This document shows positions 31,881-53,729 of a stretch of 53,730 nucleotides of DNA, in pieces; position 1 is the first letter of the stretch, and the number at the start of each line of letters is the position of its first letter. The notes below the pieces were generated by a model. It searched no databases. It was not told where the DNA came from and saw nothing but the letters and a program-made list of their open reading frames with translations. Where the stretch lies: contig JAPLJI010000069.1 in assembly GCA_026388655.1 (NCBI GenBank), positions 1-53,730 on the forward strand, read 5' to 3'. This stretch comes from Pseudomonadota bacterium. Lineage in GTDB: Bacteria > Desulfobacterota > JAPLJL01. A program made the position numbers and the translations under genes.

Positions 31881-32375
31881 GTGGCAGAAGAATACGGTCC
31901 CAACCGAGGTCCCTATGGGCATCTTTCAATCCTCGAAGACGAGGGAGAAATCCCCCTCAGGGAAGGGATCCTGAAATTCCCGACCAAGCCGGGCGAACCC
32001 GCGCGGATCATCGCGAGCAAGTGCAAGAAGTGCGGAGACATCTCTTTTCCGCAAAAATTGTATTGCGGAATATGCGATGGAGAAGAGATGGAAGAGCATG
32101 TTTTGAGCCCCCGCGGCAAGGTTTACACTTACACCGTTGTGCACCAGATGGGGACTCCCGGGGTCGAGGTTCCCTATGCCTTGGTCCTGGTCAAGGTTCC
32201 CGAAGACGATAAGCTCCTGATCGCCGGCCAGCTCACGGGTGTGAAGATGGAGGACGTGAAGATCGGGATGGACGTGGAGATAATCTTTGGCAAATGCCGG
32301 ATGGGGATGCTGGGTCTCCTGGCCGGTCAACCGCAGGACGTCATCGGCTATCTGTTCCGGCCGGTAAGAAAATAA
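31881..32375 (+). CDS. DUF35 Zn-ribbon/OB-fold thiolase partner protein
   Basis: 164 residues. The rubredoxin-like zinc ribbon has CKKCGD and CGICDG (about 48-65). An OB-fold follows: GKVYTYTVVHQMG, PYALVLVKVPEDDKLLIAGQL. DUF35 proteins bridge or channel acyl-CoA substrates to thiolase-superfamily enzymes, as in archaeal thiolase/HMG-CoA synthase complexes and BbsA of anaerobic toluene degradation. The thiolase gene follows at 32552. GTG 31881 has the ribosome binding site AAAGGAGG. About 35 residues before the ribbon are longer than in minimal members. Confidence 0.85.
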   Translation: MAEEYGPNRGPYGHLSILEDEGEIPLREGILKFPTKPGEPARIIASKCKKCGDISFPQKLYCGICDGEEMEEHVLSPRGKVYTYTVVHQMGTPGVEVPYALVLVKVPEDDKLLIAGQLTGVKMEDVKIGMDVEIIFGKCRMGMLGLLAGQPQDVIGYLFRPVRK

Positions 32376-32512: not shown

Positions 32513-32551
32513 CTTAAAAAATCGCAGACGGAGTAAAACGGAGGAAAGAAA

Positions 32552-33772
32552 ATGAGAGATGTAATCACAATCGGCGCCGGGATGACCAGGTTCGGCAAAT
32601 ATGACGGCGCCAACATGCCCTGGCGCAATCATGAACAGCTGGGCCGGGAGGCCTGTATCAGCGCCCTGAAACACGCCGGCGTTAATCACCGGGACATCCA
32701 GGCCGCCTACTTCGGCCAGACCGCGAGCGGGATGATCCAGATCGGCCAGCGGGTGTGCGACTGGCTGGGGATCTCCGGGATCCCGATCTACAATCACGAA
32801 AACGCCTGCGCCACCAGCCTGGCGGCTTTCCGCCAGGCATATATCGATGTCGCCTCCGGGATGCATGACCTCGTCCTGGTGGCGGGTGTCGAGAAAATGA
32901 GCCTGGTTAAGGCCCGGAAGAAAGGGGAAGGCGGCGGCGGAGGCGGCGGCATGGGATTGATGGGCGGCGGGGGTGGCCCGATCGTGGTGCCCGAGGGCTA
33001 TATGTTCCTTGCCGATCTGGGGATTATCATGCCGGCTTTCTTCGCGCTCATGGGCACCCGGCACATGCACGATTACGGGACCACGCGGGAGCAGTTCGCC
33101 CAGATCTCGGTGAAAAACCACCGATGCGGGGCGATGAATCCTTATGCCCAGTACCAGAAGGAAGTAACCCTCGAGCAGGTTCTGAACTCCCGGATGATCT
33201 GCGACCCGATCACGCTCCTGCAGTGCACCCCCACGGGTGACGGGGCGGCGAGCGTGATTCTGGCCTCGAGCAAGGTAGCCAAAAAATATACCACCAAGAT
33301 GGTCAAGGTGGCCGGATCCATTGTCATGAGCGGGGAATACAAGGCCCACCAGGGTAAGTTCGCTTCGGTGGCTTCCTGCAAGGTGGCGGCCAAGATGATC
33401 TATGAGCAGACCGGGATCGGTCCCAAGGATCTGAACGTGGTGGAACAGCACGACTGCTTCACTCCCCATGAGCTCGTGACTTACGAGGACCTGGGGATCT
33501 GCAAGCCGGGTGAAGGCGGGAAACTCGTGGACCAGGGGGTCACCGCTCTGGGCGGCAAGGTGCCGTTCAACGTGAGCGGCGGGCTCCAGTCCAAGGGGCA
33601 TCCGATCGCGGCTACCGGAGTGGCCCAGATCACCGAGCTGGTCTGGCAGCTTCGGGGAGAATGTGGAAAGCGGCAGGTGGAAGGGGCCAGGGTAGGTCTC
33701 GCCCATAACGGCGGCGGGATCGGTCCGGGTCTCGAGCCGGGCCTCGCCAGCCTGACAATTCTAAAGGTGTAG
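32552..33772 (+). CDS. Thiolase (SCP2/acetyl-CoA acetyltransferase-like)
   Basis: 406 residues with ribosome binding site GGAGGAAAG. The nucleophile is in NHENACATSLAAF (Cys 86). His 300 lies in VEQHDCFTPHE and the second His in SKGHPIAATG (about 350). At the C-terminal loop, where degradative thiolases have CGGGG, this protein has LAHNGGGIG, as in SCP2-type thiolases. A Gly-rich loop, GGGGGGGMGLMGGGGG (about 127-142), is shared with the thiolase at 51615. It probably cleaves or forms a beta-ketoacyl-CoA with the upstream DUF35 protein as partner; chain or ring specificity is unknown. Confidence 0.88.
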   Translation: MRDVITIGAGMTRFGKYDGANMPWRNHEQLGREACISALKHAGVNHRDIQAAYFGQTASGMIQIGQRVCDWLGISGIPIYNHENACATSLAAFRQAYIDVASGMHDLVLVAGVEKMSLVKARKKGEGGGGGGGMGLMGGGGGPIVVPEGYMFLADLGIIMPAFFALMGTRHMHDYGTTREQFAQISVKNHRCGAMNPYAQYQKEVTLEQVLNSRMICDPITLLQCTPTGDGAASVILASSKVAKKYTTKMVKVAGSIVMSGEYKAHQGKFASVASCKVAAKMIYEQTGIGPKDLNVVEQHDCFTPHELVTYEDLGICKPGEGGKLVDQGVTALGGKVPFNVSGGLQSKGHPIAATGVAQITELVWQLRGECGKRQVEGARVGLAHNGGGIGPGLEPGLASLTILKV

Positions 33773-49009: not shown

Positions 49010-50053
49010 TCATCCTCCCGAATTCATTATTTCCTGCATACCTGAACCGATTTTTCTTACTTTTTCGCCGTTAATGTCAAGGTTGAGCTCCAGCTCGGCC
49101 AGGAAGCGAAGGTAAGCCGGCTGTTTTTTAGTAGGGTAGCGGGGATAGGAAAAAAGAAAAGCTTCCACCATCGGCCCGGATTTTAGGGAACCTTGGACGG
49201 TGATTCCGTTCTGTTCGAATTCGAAGCGCATCTTCCCCGGGTAAGGGGATTTGGTGTTCGGCTCGGTTCTCCAATCGGATTCCTGGATGATATTCAGGTC
49301 GGGGCCGAAGTCAGTAAAATTGAGGAGCTTTTCCCGGCCGCGGGCGAGCAGGGCGCAGATGAGCTTGGAGCTAAACAGCTCGGGGGGCATGTACCCGGCG
49401 GGCATGATAAAGGTAAAATCATCCAGCCAGAATTTGAGCCAGTACCAGCGCTCGAAGAGGCGGCCCAGGATGATATTCCCCCGGCCCTGCTCGTGATACC
49501 CCAACCCGGTCACGGGGACTTTCTTTCCCGCGATCGCCAGCGTTCCTTTTACATCCCCGCGGGGTACGAATTCGATGTAATTGAAATAGGCGGAACCGGA
49601 GGGATCGAAAGGCTGGAACATAGCGGGGTTGGAAAACCCCATTTCGTCCAGGGGGGTCCAGGGTGGCAGGAGGGGTGAAAGCTCCAGCTCCATCCCGATT
49701 TCTCCTTCCGATAAATTGAGCTGGTAGCGATCGCCTACGCAACTAACCAGGTTCTTCCCGACTTTTACCTTCAGACCCTTCCGGGATCCCTGGGATTCGG
49801 AAAGGGGATAGGCTTTCTTGGCGTCGTAGCGCTTTCCCTCGGGGGTGAGAACGGTCAGCCAGACCTCGGGGGTAAGCCTGGGGAGACTGACCCCCGGAAC
49901 GGAACCGACCGAGCGGGGCAAAATGACCGCGGCCCCGGTGTATCCATTGGTGAAGATGAAATCGAAATAAAGCCACTGCCAGTAGTCGGGGTGCTCGTCG
50001 TAATGCCAGGCATTTTCTTCCCGGGAAATGGGGGTCCAATCGGAAAAATTCAT
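49010..50053 (-). CDS. CrtC/AttH-like lipocalin-fold protein
   Basis: 347 residues without a signal peptide. AttH/CrtC (hydroxyneurosporene synthase) features: WQWLYFDFIFTNG near the start, FNYIEFVPRGDVKGTLAI in the middle and the signature GLGYHEQGRGNIIL (CrtC GxGYHDHNxG) followed by WYWLKFWLDDFTF. The family comprises carotenoid hydratases and other enzymes on hydrophobic substrates; the actual reaction here is unknown. It heads the operon with the thioesterase and REC-PilZ regulator. The ribosome binding site is AAGGAG. Confidence 0.72.
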   Translation of the reverse strand: MNFSDWTPISREENAWHYDEHPDYWQWLYFDFIFTNGYTGAAVILPRSVGSVPGVSLPRLTPEVWLTVLTPEGKRYDAKKAYPLSESQGSRKGLKVKVGKNLVSCVGDRYQLNLSEGEIGMELELSPLLPPWTPLDEMGFSNPAMFQPFDPSGSAYFNYIEFVPRGDVKGTLAIAGKKVPVTGLGYHEQGRGNIILGRLFERWYWLKFWLDDFTFIMPAGYMPPELFSSKLICALLARGREKLLNFTDFGPDLNIIQESDWRTEPNTKSPYPGKMRFEFEQNGITVQGSLKSGPMVEAFLFSYPRYPTKKQPAYLRFLAELELNLDINGEKVRKIGSGMQEIMNSGG

Positions 50054-51102: not shown

Positions 51103-51558
51103 TCAGATCGGGCGGAAGCAGACCATGTCCGCCAGGGCCCCGGTGGTTTCTTCCCTTAAGATCAGCTCCGCCGGCATCCCGACGTGAACCTTCTTCCAAT
51201 CATCAATTTCCAGCTGTCCCATCATCCAGGAATCGGAACCGTCCAGTTTGACCTGGACCGCCACTGATATCTCGTCCACCGGGTTGCCCCGGACATCGGC
51301 CAGGTTGACGGTATAACAGGCAATCTTGCCTTTCTTGCTGACCTCGACCACGTCCTGGATGTCGATGAAGCATTTGCGACAATATGAGGGCCCCGGGACA
51401 TAAACCATGCCGCATTTGTGGCACTTCCGGCCGAGGATCTTTTTCTCCTTGAACCCCTGAACCAGGAGCTCAAGACCGTCGGCCTCGATCCGCCACTTGA
51501 GCAGGCTCATATCCAGGATGTCGCTTACCTGCCGGGTTTCTTTTTTCTCTTTTTGCAT
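51103..51558 (-). CDS. DUF35 Zn-ribbon/OB-fold thiolase partner protein
   Basis: 151 residues. The zinc ribbon has CHKCGM and CRKCF (about 46-66), followed by an OB-fold: GKIACYTVNLAD, ISVAVQVKLDGSDSWMMGQLE. The first about 30 residues form a longer lead helix (SDILDMSLLKWRIEADGLEL). It is the third gene of the minus-strand thiolase set and is predicted to bridge its two thiolase subunits. It diverges from the first DUF35 protein (31881), so the two sets are not recent copies. Confidence 0.87.
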   Translation of the reverse strand: MQKEKKETRQVSDILDMSLLKWRIEADGLELLVQGFKEKKILGRKCHKCGMVYVPGPSYCRKCFIDIQDVVEVSKKGKIACYTVNLADVRGNPVDEISVAVQVKLDGSDSWMMGQLEIDDWKKVHVGMPAELILREETTGALADMVCFRPI

Positions 51559-51614: not shown

Positions 51615-52862
51615 TTACCGTTTGACCGGTTCATCCCCGACAATGGTGATGGTGACAAACTGGAACAATCCCCCCCAACCGTGGGCCAGGGCGTTCTTGA
51701 CCCGGCGCGGAACCTGGTGCCCGCCCTCGGCCATCCCCATCACCTGGAGGGAAGCCTCCGCGACCCGCACCATGGCGGAAGCCCCGATAGCGTTGGTGGA
51801 AACCACCCCGCCCGAGGGATTAACCGGCATTTCGCCGTCAATCGCGAGGCGGCCTTCGTCGATGGCCTTGCAGCTATTGTCGACCAGGTGGAGCTTTTCG
51901 GGCCACATCAGTTCCTGGTGGGCGAACCCGTCGTAAACCTCGCACATCTGAATTTCCTTTTTCGGATTCTGGATCCCGGCCAGCTGGTAGGCCTTGGGGG
52001 CGGCGATTTTTTCGCAGATGGCCTGCTCCGCCGGGTCATTAATCTGGCCGTCAATTAGGTTCCCGGTGGTGGCGTCCGAAGAAGCGGTGGCCACGGCCTT
52101 GACCCAGGCCACCCGGTCGGTGTCGGCGAATTTCTTGACCTTTTCTTCCGCGACCAGGATCATAACGCAGGCTCCGCAGGAAGTGGGGCAGGTATGACCG
52201 AACCGGAGGGGGTAGGAAACCATCGGGGTTTTCGCGATGTCCGCGGCCGTGCAGTTGGGATGCTGGAGGTGGGCGTAGGGGTTCTTGGCGGCGTTAGACC
52301 GGGCCTGGGCCGCCATTTTGTCGATGTGTTCCGGAGTTCCCTTGGCCTTGGCCAGGTAGGATAAAGCCTGGAAGCTGGCGCCCCCGGTGGAGCCGCCTCC
52401 TCCGAGGAGTCCCATTCCGCCGCCCCGGCCCCCGCTCATGTCCGGGCCGAACTGAAACAGGGAAAAGGCCTCCGGGAGAACGATTCCCATAAGGCCGACC
52501 TGGGCGTCGCCCTCGTCATGTTTTTCCCAGCCGATGACCATGGCGACGTCAAACATCCCGGAGGCCACGCAATAATAACCCCCGTGGAAGACCGACATCC
52601 CGGTGGTTCCCCCGGTGGAGATCCGGAGGACCGGCTTGCCCGCCGCGCCGATATGGTCCGAGAACCAGAGGTGGGGATAATTGATCCCCTCGAAGGTGGG
52701 CATGTTTCCTTCCACCACGACCCCGATATCGCTGTGTTTCATCTTGGTTTTCTTCAAGGCGTTCGCCACCGCCGGCTGGATCATTTCCGGGATGTTGACG
52801 TCCGGGCGCTTGGCCACGAAGCGGTCATTGTAACCGACTGAAATGATTGCCACGTTTCTCAT
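51615..52862 (-). CDS. Thiolase-fold protein lacking catalytic Cys and His
   Basis: 415 residues from ATG 52862, with GAGGAGG eight bases upstream. The thiolase fold is recognisable (VAIISVGYNDRF, VASGMFDVAMVIGWEK, AEKLHLVDNSCKAI, VNPSGGVVSTNAIGA, NALAHGWGG). At the nucleophile site it reads STGGTTGMS, so Cys is replaced by Gly at about residue 85. At the HDxF site it reads EVYDGFAHQE, so His is Tyr. It carries the same Gly-rich loop as the other thiolase (GGRGGGMGLLGGGG, about 145-158). It is probably a structural subunit that pairs with the catalytic thiolase encoded just upstream. Confidence 0.87.
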   Translation of the reverse strand: MRNVAIISVGYNDRFVAKRPDVNIPEMIQPAVANALKKTKMKHSDIGVVVEGNMPTFEGINYPHLWFSDHIGAAGKPVLRISTGGTTGMSVFHGGYYCVASGMFDVAMVIGWEKHDEGDAQVGLMGIVLPEAFSLFQFGPDMSGGRGGGMGLLGGGGSTGGASFQALSYLAKAKGTPEHIDKMAAQARSNAAKNPYAHLQHPNCTAADIAKTPMVSYPLRFGHTCPTSCGACVMILVAEEKVKKFADTDRVAWVKAVATASSDATTGNLIDGQINDPAEQAICEKIAAPKAYQLAGIQNPKKEIQMCEVYDGFAHQELMWPEKLHLVDNSCKAIDEGRLAIDGEMPVNPSGGVVSTNAIGASAMVRVAEASLQVMGMAEGGHQVPRRVKNALAHGWGGLFQFVTITIVGDEPVKR

Positions 52863-52892
52863 ATTTAACACCTCCTCATCTTTAACTTGGGC

Positions 52893-53729
52893 CTAGTTAC
52901 CGAGGACGAATACCACGTTATGCTGGGCCGCCATGCCGATCTGCCCGTGGGCCAGGGCGAGCTTGGGGGCCTTTTTCACCTGGTGTTCCCCGGCTTCTCC
53001 CCGCAGCTGGGCGCTGGCTTCCGCGATCCGGATCAACCCACTGACGGTCAGGGGGTTGGCAGCCTGTGGGCCGCCGGACGGGTTGATCGGGGTCTTGCCT
53101 TCAATTTCCAGCCAGCCTTTGCTGACCGCGTTGGGCCCGGAGTTCTTGGGAATCAGCCCCAGGGCTTCGGCGAAAATCGGCTCCTGGGAGACATAAGTGG
53201 TATGGAGTTCCGACACCCCGATTTTCTTGGCGGGGTCGGTGATCCCGGCCATCTTGTAAGCCGTTTTGGCGGCCTTTTGCAGGGAATCCATTTTCACCAG
53301 GTCTCTCTCGCCCAGGTAATAGGTGTCCTGGCAGAAGCCCACCCCTTTGATCCAGACGGGATTCTTGACCAATTCCTTGGCTTTTTCCTCGGAGGCAAGG
53401 AGGATGGCGCAGGCTCCATCCGCCGGGGTGTAGGCGTGCAGCTCGCGCAGGGGCAGGGCCAGCGCCCGGGAAGCGAGCACGTCTTTTTCCGTGGCGTTGG
53501 CTTTTTTCCGGAGGGCCAGGGGATTCCGGGCGCCGTTCCGGAGGTTTTTGACCGCGAGGCCCGCCAGCTGTTCCTCCGTGAGCTGGGACTTGGCCATATA
53601 GGCCTGGGCCTGGAGGGCGGCCGCGGTGATCTCGTTGACCAGCTTGGCCTGCCGTTCATAAATAGGGTCGAGGACGTAATCCATGATCCGGGGAGATCGG
53701 AATTCCGATCCGCCCATCGCGTAGCCCAC
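52893..53729 (-). CDS. Thiolase, partial at window edge
   Basis: The visible 278 residues are the C-terminal two-thirds of a thiolase. They contain ELHTTYVSQEP (catalytic His retained), KTPINPSGGPQAANPLTVSG and LALAHGQIGMAAQHN. The nucleophile region lies beyond the window. It ends 30 bp before the degenerate thiolase and is probably the first of three co-transcribed genes: catalytic thiolase, degenerate thiolase, DUF35 protein. Confidence 0.87.
   Translation of the reverse strand: MGYAMGGSEFRSPRIMDYVLDPIYERQAKLVNEITAAALQAQAYMAKSQLTEEQLAGLAVKNLRNGARNPLALRKKANATEKDVLASRALALPLRELHAYTPADGACAILLASEEKAKELVKNPVWIKGVGFCQDTYYLGERDLVKMDSLQKAAKTAYKMAGITDPAKKIGVSELHTTYVSQEPIFAEALGLIPKNSGPNAVSKGWLEIEGKTPINPSGGPQAANPLTVSGLIRIAEASAQLRGEAGEHQVKKAPKLALAHGQIGMAAQHNVVFVLGN

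Follow-up and report, generated by a model that had tools for sequence, protein, structure and literature searches.

A module of two Cys-less thiolase-fold subunits and DUF35 proteins, a probable heteromeric acyl-CoA aldolase, in a Desulfobacterota genome

The window analysed here is a stretch of 53,730 nucleotides (assembly GCA_026388655.1, contig JAPLJI010000069.1, positions 1 to 53,730, forward strand) from an uncultured Pseudomonadota bacterium which GTDB places in the Desulfobacterota (JAPLJL01). It forms the end of the contig denoted C176, and close to this end it carries two neighbouring genes for thiolase-fold proteins, subunit A and the truncated subunit B, together with a gene for a DUF35 protein. 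The window end shares 141 identical bases with the end of another contig of the same genome, C50, and across this join the B gene could be completed. Since a second DUF35 gene lies upstream of B, the module has the order DUF35a-B-A-DUF35b. The features are the following (L180 is a locus on C50):

51103..51558, minus strand: DUF35b, a zinc-ribbon and oligonucleotide/oligosaccharide-binding (OB) fold protein of 151 residues, both CxxC pairs intact in the translation
51618..52862, minus strand: subunit A, Cys-less thiolase-fold protein of 415 residues, ATG at 52862, the proposed catalytic subunit
52608..52610, minus strand: Gly85 codon of A, site of the thiolase nucleophilic Cys; Gly in 103 of 103 A proteins
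51933..51935, minus strand: Tyr310 codon of A, site of the HDxF His; Tyr in 103 of 103 A proteins
51792..51794, minus strand: Asn357 codon of A, site of the GHP His; Asn in 102 of the 102 A proteins with a letter there
52893..53729, minus strand: subunit B, Cys-less thiolase-fold partner, 3' part only; orthologues in the genus relatives G001 and G002
53202..53204, minus strand: retained His of B (SELHTTY); His in 14 of 97 B proteins, i.e. not conserved
L180:13112-13564 (contig C50), plus strand: 5' part of subunit B, joined by the exact 141-bp overlap of the contig ends
L180:12640-13092 (contig C50): DUF35a, the second DUF35 gene, just upstream of B

The active-site residues of A were assigned by alignment with SCP2-type thiolases of the same genome that have the nucleophilic Cys and the HDxF His. 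Besides the substitutions listed above, Gly312 replaces the Cys of the HDC(F) motif, thus all four thiolase residues are gone from A (Gly85, Tyr310, Gly312, Asn357). The first-pass annotation, which was made from the DNA letters only, had described the Gly and the Tyr in the protein encoded at 51615 as well as a preserved fold and an adjoining DUF35 gene, and all of these observations were borne out. The thiolase C-terminal domain was recognised by Pfam in both A and B. The Pfam matches of DUF35b are weak (zf-ChsH2, E 2.4e-4; OB_ChsH2_C, E 7e-4), and its position is the same in the genus relative G002. An intact SCP2-type thiolase (NACATS, HDCF, GHP) is also encoded in the window, at 32537-33769, with a DUF35 domain just before it at 32100-32285, and it is a useful positive control.

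In the first-pass annotation the protein upstream of A was taken for the catalytic subunit of an obligate heteromeric thiolase, the 51615 protein for its structural partner and the DUF35 protein for a bridge, and it was proposed to read past the window end in order to see the Cys of the partial gene. Read through the C176/C50 join, window B starts with MDRKVAIVGYKQTKY, and no Cys is present in the nucleophile region of the completed protein, which reads KVDSDGANAVLYAMM (also given as KVDSDGANAVLYAMMRILSG). In G001 and G002 the B gene is complete, and its nucleophile region (KVDSDSANAVLYAMM or KVDSDSANAALYAMM) has no Cys at the nucleophile site. The upstream gene thus lacks its Cys as well, an outcome that the first-pass annotation itself had listed as one that would refute its model. 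The His that the annotation had seen at the HDxF position of the upstream protein is indeed there and speaks for a true thiolase; however, it is kept in so few B proteins (14 of 97), the GHP His of window B is lost, and none of the 97 relatives has a Cys at the nucleophile site. A catalytic upstream thiolase with a structural 51615 subunit is thus extremely improbable, and we consider this model ruled out by the sequence through the contig join and by the 97 relatives. The assignment appears rather to be reversed, as the sequence comparisons favour catalysis by A and degeneration of B.

Relatives of A were gathered by searches of related genomes and of GTDB genomes. Eighty loci were found in genome contigs by the pattern CPx[ST][DNC]GAC, and since this pattern fixes Cys225 and Cys232, these two residues were not counted as evidence. 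A Cys at the nucleophile site occurs in 0 of 103 A and 0 of 97 B proteins. Gly85, Tyr310 and Asn357 belong to the 12 fully invariant positions of A, whereas the equivalents of Tyr310, Gly312 and Asn357 in B are at the 77th, 96th and 50th entropy percentile, the overall variability of the two families being alike (1.79 bits in A vs 2.02 bits in B). At the HDxF position the 97 B proteins have Ser (25), Tyr (22), His (14), Phe (12), Cys (9) or other residues, and the GHP His is present in 18 of them, window B not included. The strict conservation of the changed site in A suggests a working, rebuilt site, while the drift of the same sites in B points to a decayed one. Two plasmid-borne B partners, at L175:7075-7989 (Rhodococcus) and L177:6535-7446 (Simplicispira), are annotated at only about 304 residues, which fits the loss by B of its own active site. 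An alignment artefact, a decaying pseudogene or a local loss was also considered for the window module and was ruled out, as the changes are invariant across phyla and are present in all four modules of the genome.

The same data bear on two further explanations. A thiolase whose displaced Cys is provided by A or, in trans, by its partner could be imagined because in about 14 of the 103 A proteins a Cys directly precedes the canonical site (TCGSTG or TCGTTG), and some B proteins have one within about 10 residues of it. Window A, however, has Gly84-Gly85 there and no Cys; such a Cys is conserved in neither family, and the HDxF and GHP His have also gone from A. This explanation is therefore very unlikely. 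Somewhat less so, but still unlikely, is a non-catalytic pair acting as a CoA (coenzyme A)-ester carrier, sensor or scaffold. It would suit the absence of all four thiolase residues from A and the degeneration of B at most of these sites, but a mere scaffold would not need Gly85, Tyr310 and Asn357 to be invariant over many phyla and two domains of life. Moreover, the actinobacterial genes ltp3 and ltp4, to which the pair is compared below, are described in the title of Wilbrink 2012 as essential for the degradation of C24-branched sterol side chains.

B precedes A in 105 of the 106 loci in which the A gene has at least 1.1 kb of upstream sequence. A strict distance rule gives B in 100 of the 106, and in five of the six flagged cases B is present in shifted or partial reading frames. 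L121:5983-7161 is the sole A without a B or DUF35 neighbour despite enough sequence, and may be a solitary or relocated copy. A DUF35 gene is close to A in 109 of 115 loci, and most modules with enough flank have either two DUF35 genes (both downstream in 23, on either side in 23, both upstream in 10) or one two-domain gene. The DUF35 copies cluster by position much more strongly than expected by chance (18 changes vs 110.6 when shuffled). A clean split into A-partner and B-partner copies was not obtained; since the deep branches are weak, no pairing of the DUF35 copies with A or B is claimed. Relatives of A are found in Myxococcota, Actinomycetota, Promethearchaeota (Asgard), Pseudomonadota and Thermodesulfobacteriota, further in Chloroflexota, Spirochaetota, Acidobacteriota and others. 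Three more B-A pairs with DUF35 nearby are present in the same genome (contigs C28, C93 and C185, four modules in total), and the cultured Desulfatibacillum alkenivorans has at least one module. The pair is ancient and conserved across bacteria and archaea. That A and B would form a heteromer with DUF35 is well supported by these genomic data, and so the heteromer with a DUF35 bridge foreseen by the first-pass annotation stands by inference, while its division of labour between the subunits does not.

Two maximum-likelihood trees recovered the A clade (Shimodaira-Hasegawa-like approximate likelihood ratio test 98 and 96), the B clade (99 and 100) and the joint A+B clade (99 and 100); judged by these trees, a single ancient duplication gave rise to A and B as sister clades. 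A true Ltp2 (L170, 570 bits to PDB 6ok1) and the Sal-like proteins form a separate 100% clade, and simple orthology with Ltp2/Sal was unsupported in both trees. The Tsukamurella, Streptomyces clavuligerus and Nocardia farcinica pairs exceed the cut-off of PRK07937 with their B and that of PRK08313 with their A proteins and lie inside the B and A clades, and the Tsukamurella pair adjoins an EchA19 hydratase and a steroid 3-ketoacyl-CoA thiolase. We call these actinobacterial pairs Ltp4/Ltp3-type on account of their family, the EchA19 and steroid neighbours and the published gene order, with no record named ltp3 or ltp4 among the proteins compared. The nearest sampled A/B relatives are a further thiolase-like family, at L072:1990-3243, L075:10036-11295 and G000:C28 (L004), with Gly at the Cys site (GGATG) but with HDAF and GHA retained. 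At the base of the A+B clade is a divergent thiolase-like pair (L134:7796-10288), whose second member has Gly, Tyr, Pro and Asn at the four active-site positions; the pair may represent an early stage of the A/B split.

AlphaFold2 predicted a thiolase fold for A (predicted local distance difference test score 86.2) and for the G002 orthologue of B (90.4), both modelled as single chains, and the structural matches of the two models span the whole chain. The matches of A include an archaeal acetoacetyl-CoA thiolase (6esq, Z 51.4, the best one, 28% identity), TcLtp2 (Z 43.2) and CtSal (Z 41.6). The predicted fold by itself leaves the function unsettled.

Among the characterised relatives, the steroid C5 side-chain aldolase CtSal-CtShy (PDB 9myr), with CtShy as its DUF35 protein, has the same Gly-for-Cys and Tyr-for-His changes as A. 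In this retro-aldolase Gly stands at the thiolase Cys site, Tyr302 of YDCY is the base (activity is abolished by the Y302F change), the acid is proposed to be Cys304, and the dimer is flanked by DUF35 (PMC12329534). In the steroid C3 side-chain aldolase TcLtp2-ChsH2 (PDB 6ok1), which also has the thiolase fold and a DUF35 partner (ChsH2), Tyr294 of YDHF acts as the base and Tyr344 as the acid (PMC12329534). Tyr310 of A is thus equivalent to the catalytic bases Tyr302 and Tyr294, and it was these equivalents that were mutated in the cited work. In contrast to what is proposed for the A/B pair, both enzymes have a homodimeric core; they also belong to a separate clade, and their acids are missing from A. 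The Cys304 position is Pro, Ala or Gly in A proteins, with Pro in most of them where the window has Gly312; the Tyr344 position is Ala358 in window A and Pro, Cys or Ser in its relatives by an ungapped reading, the alignment being uncertain there. The archaeal acetoacetyl-CoA thiolase is likewise bridged by DUF35, but it keeps the Cys, HDCF and the His of the GHP motif, and its partner is 3-hydroxy-3-methylglutaryl-CoA synthase and not an A/B-type paralogue. PhlABC with its related acyltransferases, and the benzoylsuccinyl-CoA thiolase BbsAB, also combine a thiolase-superfamily protein with a DUF35 partner. The reaction of PhlABC is different, and to our knowledge its second large subunit is not a relative of B. 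BbsAB is a thiolase, to which A and the window DUF35 protein are similar only weakly (73 of 750 bits to NF053628 and 24 of 250 bits to NF053627, respectively, both below the cut-off).

Another close counterpart that has been described is Ltp3-Ltp4. The ltp3 and ltp4 genes, whose locus tags adjoin, are reported as genes of an aldol-lyase acting on C24-branched sterols (PMC7807495, PMC6593523), and the product is described as a heteromeric aldol-lyase (PMC6678751); no structure or kinetics of Ltp3-Ltp4 was found in the literature searched. Like the window module, this system has adjacent thiolase-like genes, B then A, with DUF35 beside them, and the actinobacterial pairs assigned to it fall in the same clades, with Gly, Tyr and Asn as their A signature. 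The window proteins differ in their scores, which are below the cut-offs (342 of 514 bits to PRK08313 for A, 212 of 419 bits to PRK07937 for the B orthologue), in having two single DUF35 genes flanking the pair instead of one two-domain gene, and in the absence of a steroid gene set near the module; the host phylum also holds Desulfatibacillum.

The genes next to the modules are mostly consistent with acyl-CoA degradation. Among the matches listed for 111 sampled neighbour genes there are 21 acyl-CoA dehydrogenases, 15 enoyl-CoA hydratases, 8 MaoC proteins and 8 CoA ligases, and no short-chain dehydrogenase/reductase (SDR) or 3HCDH family has two or more matches there. In a pathway of dehydrogenation, hydration and direct retro-aldol cleavage no hydroxyacyl-CoA dehydrogenase would be needed. 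On a Rhodococcus plasmid two acyl-CoA dehydrogenases, two MaoC genes, B, A and DUF35 stand in one row.

Taken as a whole, we think it probable that DUF35a-B-A-DUF35b is one heteromeric thiolase-fold enzyme which carries out acyl-CoA retro-aldol cleavage and not thiolysis. The pair would most likely break C-C bonds in fatty-acid-like molecules in the manner of an aldolase. Thiolase chemistry is unlikely for either A or B, and a retro-aldol reaction as in CtSal and TcLtp2 fits better. A and B would pair to form one thiolase-type dimer, with a DUF35 protein capping each half, as in the homodimeric CtSal and TcLtp2. Gly85 of A would leave space at the former Cys position and Tyr310 would take the beta-hydroxyl proton, upon which the C-C bond would break, releasing a shorter acyl-CoA together with a ketone or aldehyde. 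B, with its decayed site, may give structure, interface or substrate binding. The substrates are probably beta-branched or otherwise non-thiolysable acyl-CoAs, as we infer. Since A has Gly and Tyr and neither of the known acids, the proton donor of such an aldolase would be new, perhaps coming from B or from solvent, and by its residues the active site of A would be a third variant, without both known proton donors.

The same absence of both known proton donors is in line with another reading, in which A, B and DUF35 perform some other Cys-independent C-C chemistry on CoA esters, such as Claisen-type or Friedel-Crafts-like acyl transfer, decarboxylation or aldol synthesis. The PhlC chain is a strong structural match, and PhlABC, in which thiolase-superfamily proteins act with a DUF35 protein, acylates phenols (PMC12329534). 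Nevertheless, the YDxF Tyr is invariant in A as it is in both characterised retro-aldolases, the neighbour genes are those of degradative beta-oxidation, and aldol-lyase is the name given to Ltp3/Ltp4, the sole members for which a function is reported. We regard this reading as unlikely, though less so than the other alternatives.

Several observations weigh against the retro-aldolase itself. In structure A is matched best by archaeal thiolases with their Cys in place, and not by the aldolases; the second catalytic residue of either aldolase (Cys304 of CtSal, Tyr344 of TcLtp2) is missing from A; and A and B lie outside the Ltp2/Sal clade. The relatives sampled nearest to the A+B clade have Gly at the Cys site and keep both His, thus, with modest support, the Tyr may have been gained independently in A and its chemistry may differ. 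Finally, the window module has no adjoining acyl-CoA dehydrogenase or hydratase, and the C185 module adjoins an SDR.

This kind of system is already known, being represented by Ltp3-Ltp4 and Ltp2/Sal. What is new is the much wider range, the separate paired DUF35 genes and an active site without both known proton donors. Going further, we suggest tentatively, and with less conviction than the aldolase reading itself, that such pairs are widespread and largely unrecognised heteromeric acyl-CoA aldolases of a third active-site design (Gly85, Tyr310, Asn357), with a proton donor possibly supplied by B in trans, by which anaerobic bacteria, SAR86-type marine bacteria and Asgard archaea would shorten beta-branched or isoprenoid acyl-CoAs resistant to thiolases; Ltp3-Ltp4 in steroid degradation would then be one specialised branch. 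Databases label such genes thiolase, acetyl-CoA acetyltransferase or lipid-transfer protein. If these proteins are aldolases, the final reaction and the product now predicted for many beta-oxidation pathways in bacteria and archaea of sediments are incorrect. The pair also illustrates clearly how two copies of a duplicated gene can part, one keeping an active site in rebuilt form and the other losing its own while becoming a constant partner.

The surroundings of the window module tell less about its chemistry. It is flanked upstream by a glucose-methanol-choline (GMC) oxidoreductase and an amine-oxidase-like flavin adenine dinucleotide (FAD) protein, and beyond it lie an alpha/beta hydrolase and a 4HBT thioesterase. 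On C50 (L180, 8433-12325) the GMC oxidoreductase is encoded together with a small uncharacterised protein and the amine-oxidase/phytoene-desaturase-like FAD protein, and this arrangement recurs in G002 (L048). Close to the module, at 49010-50053, the window also encodes a 347-residue protein that has no Pfam match, with the thioesterase on one side of it and the alpha/beta hydrolase on the other.
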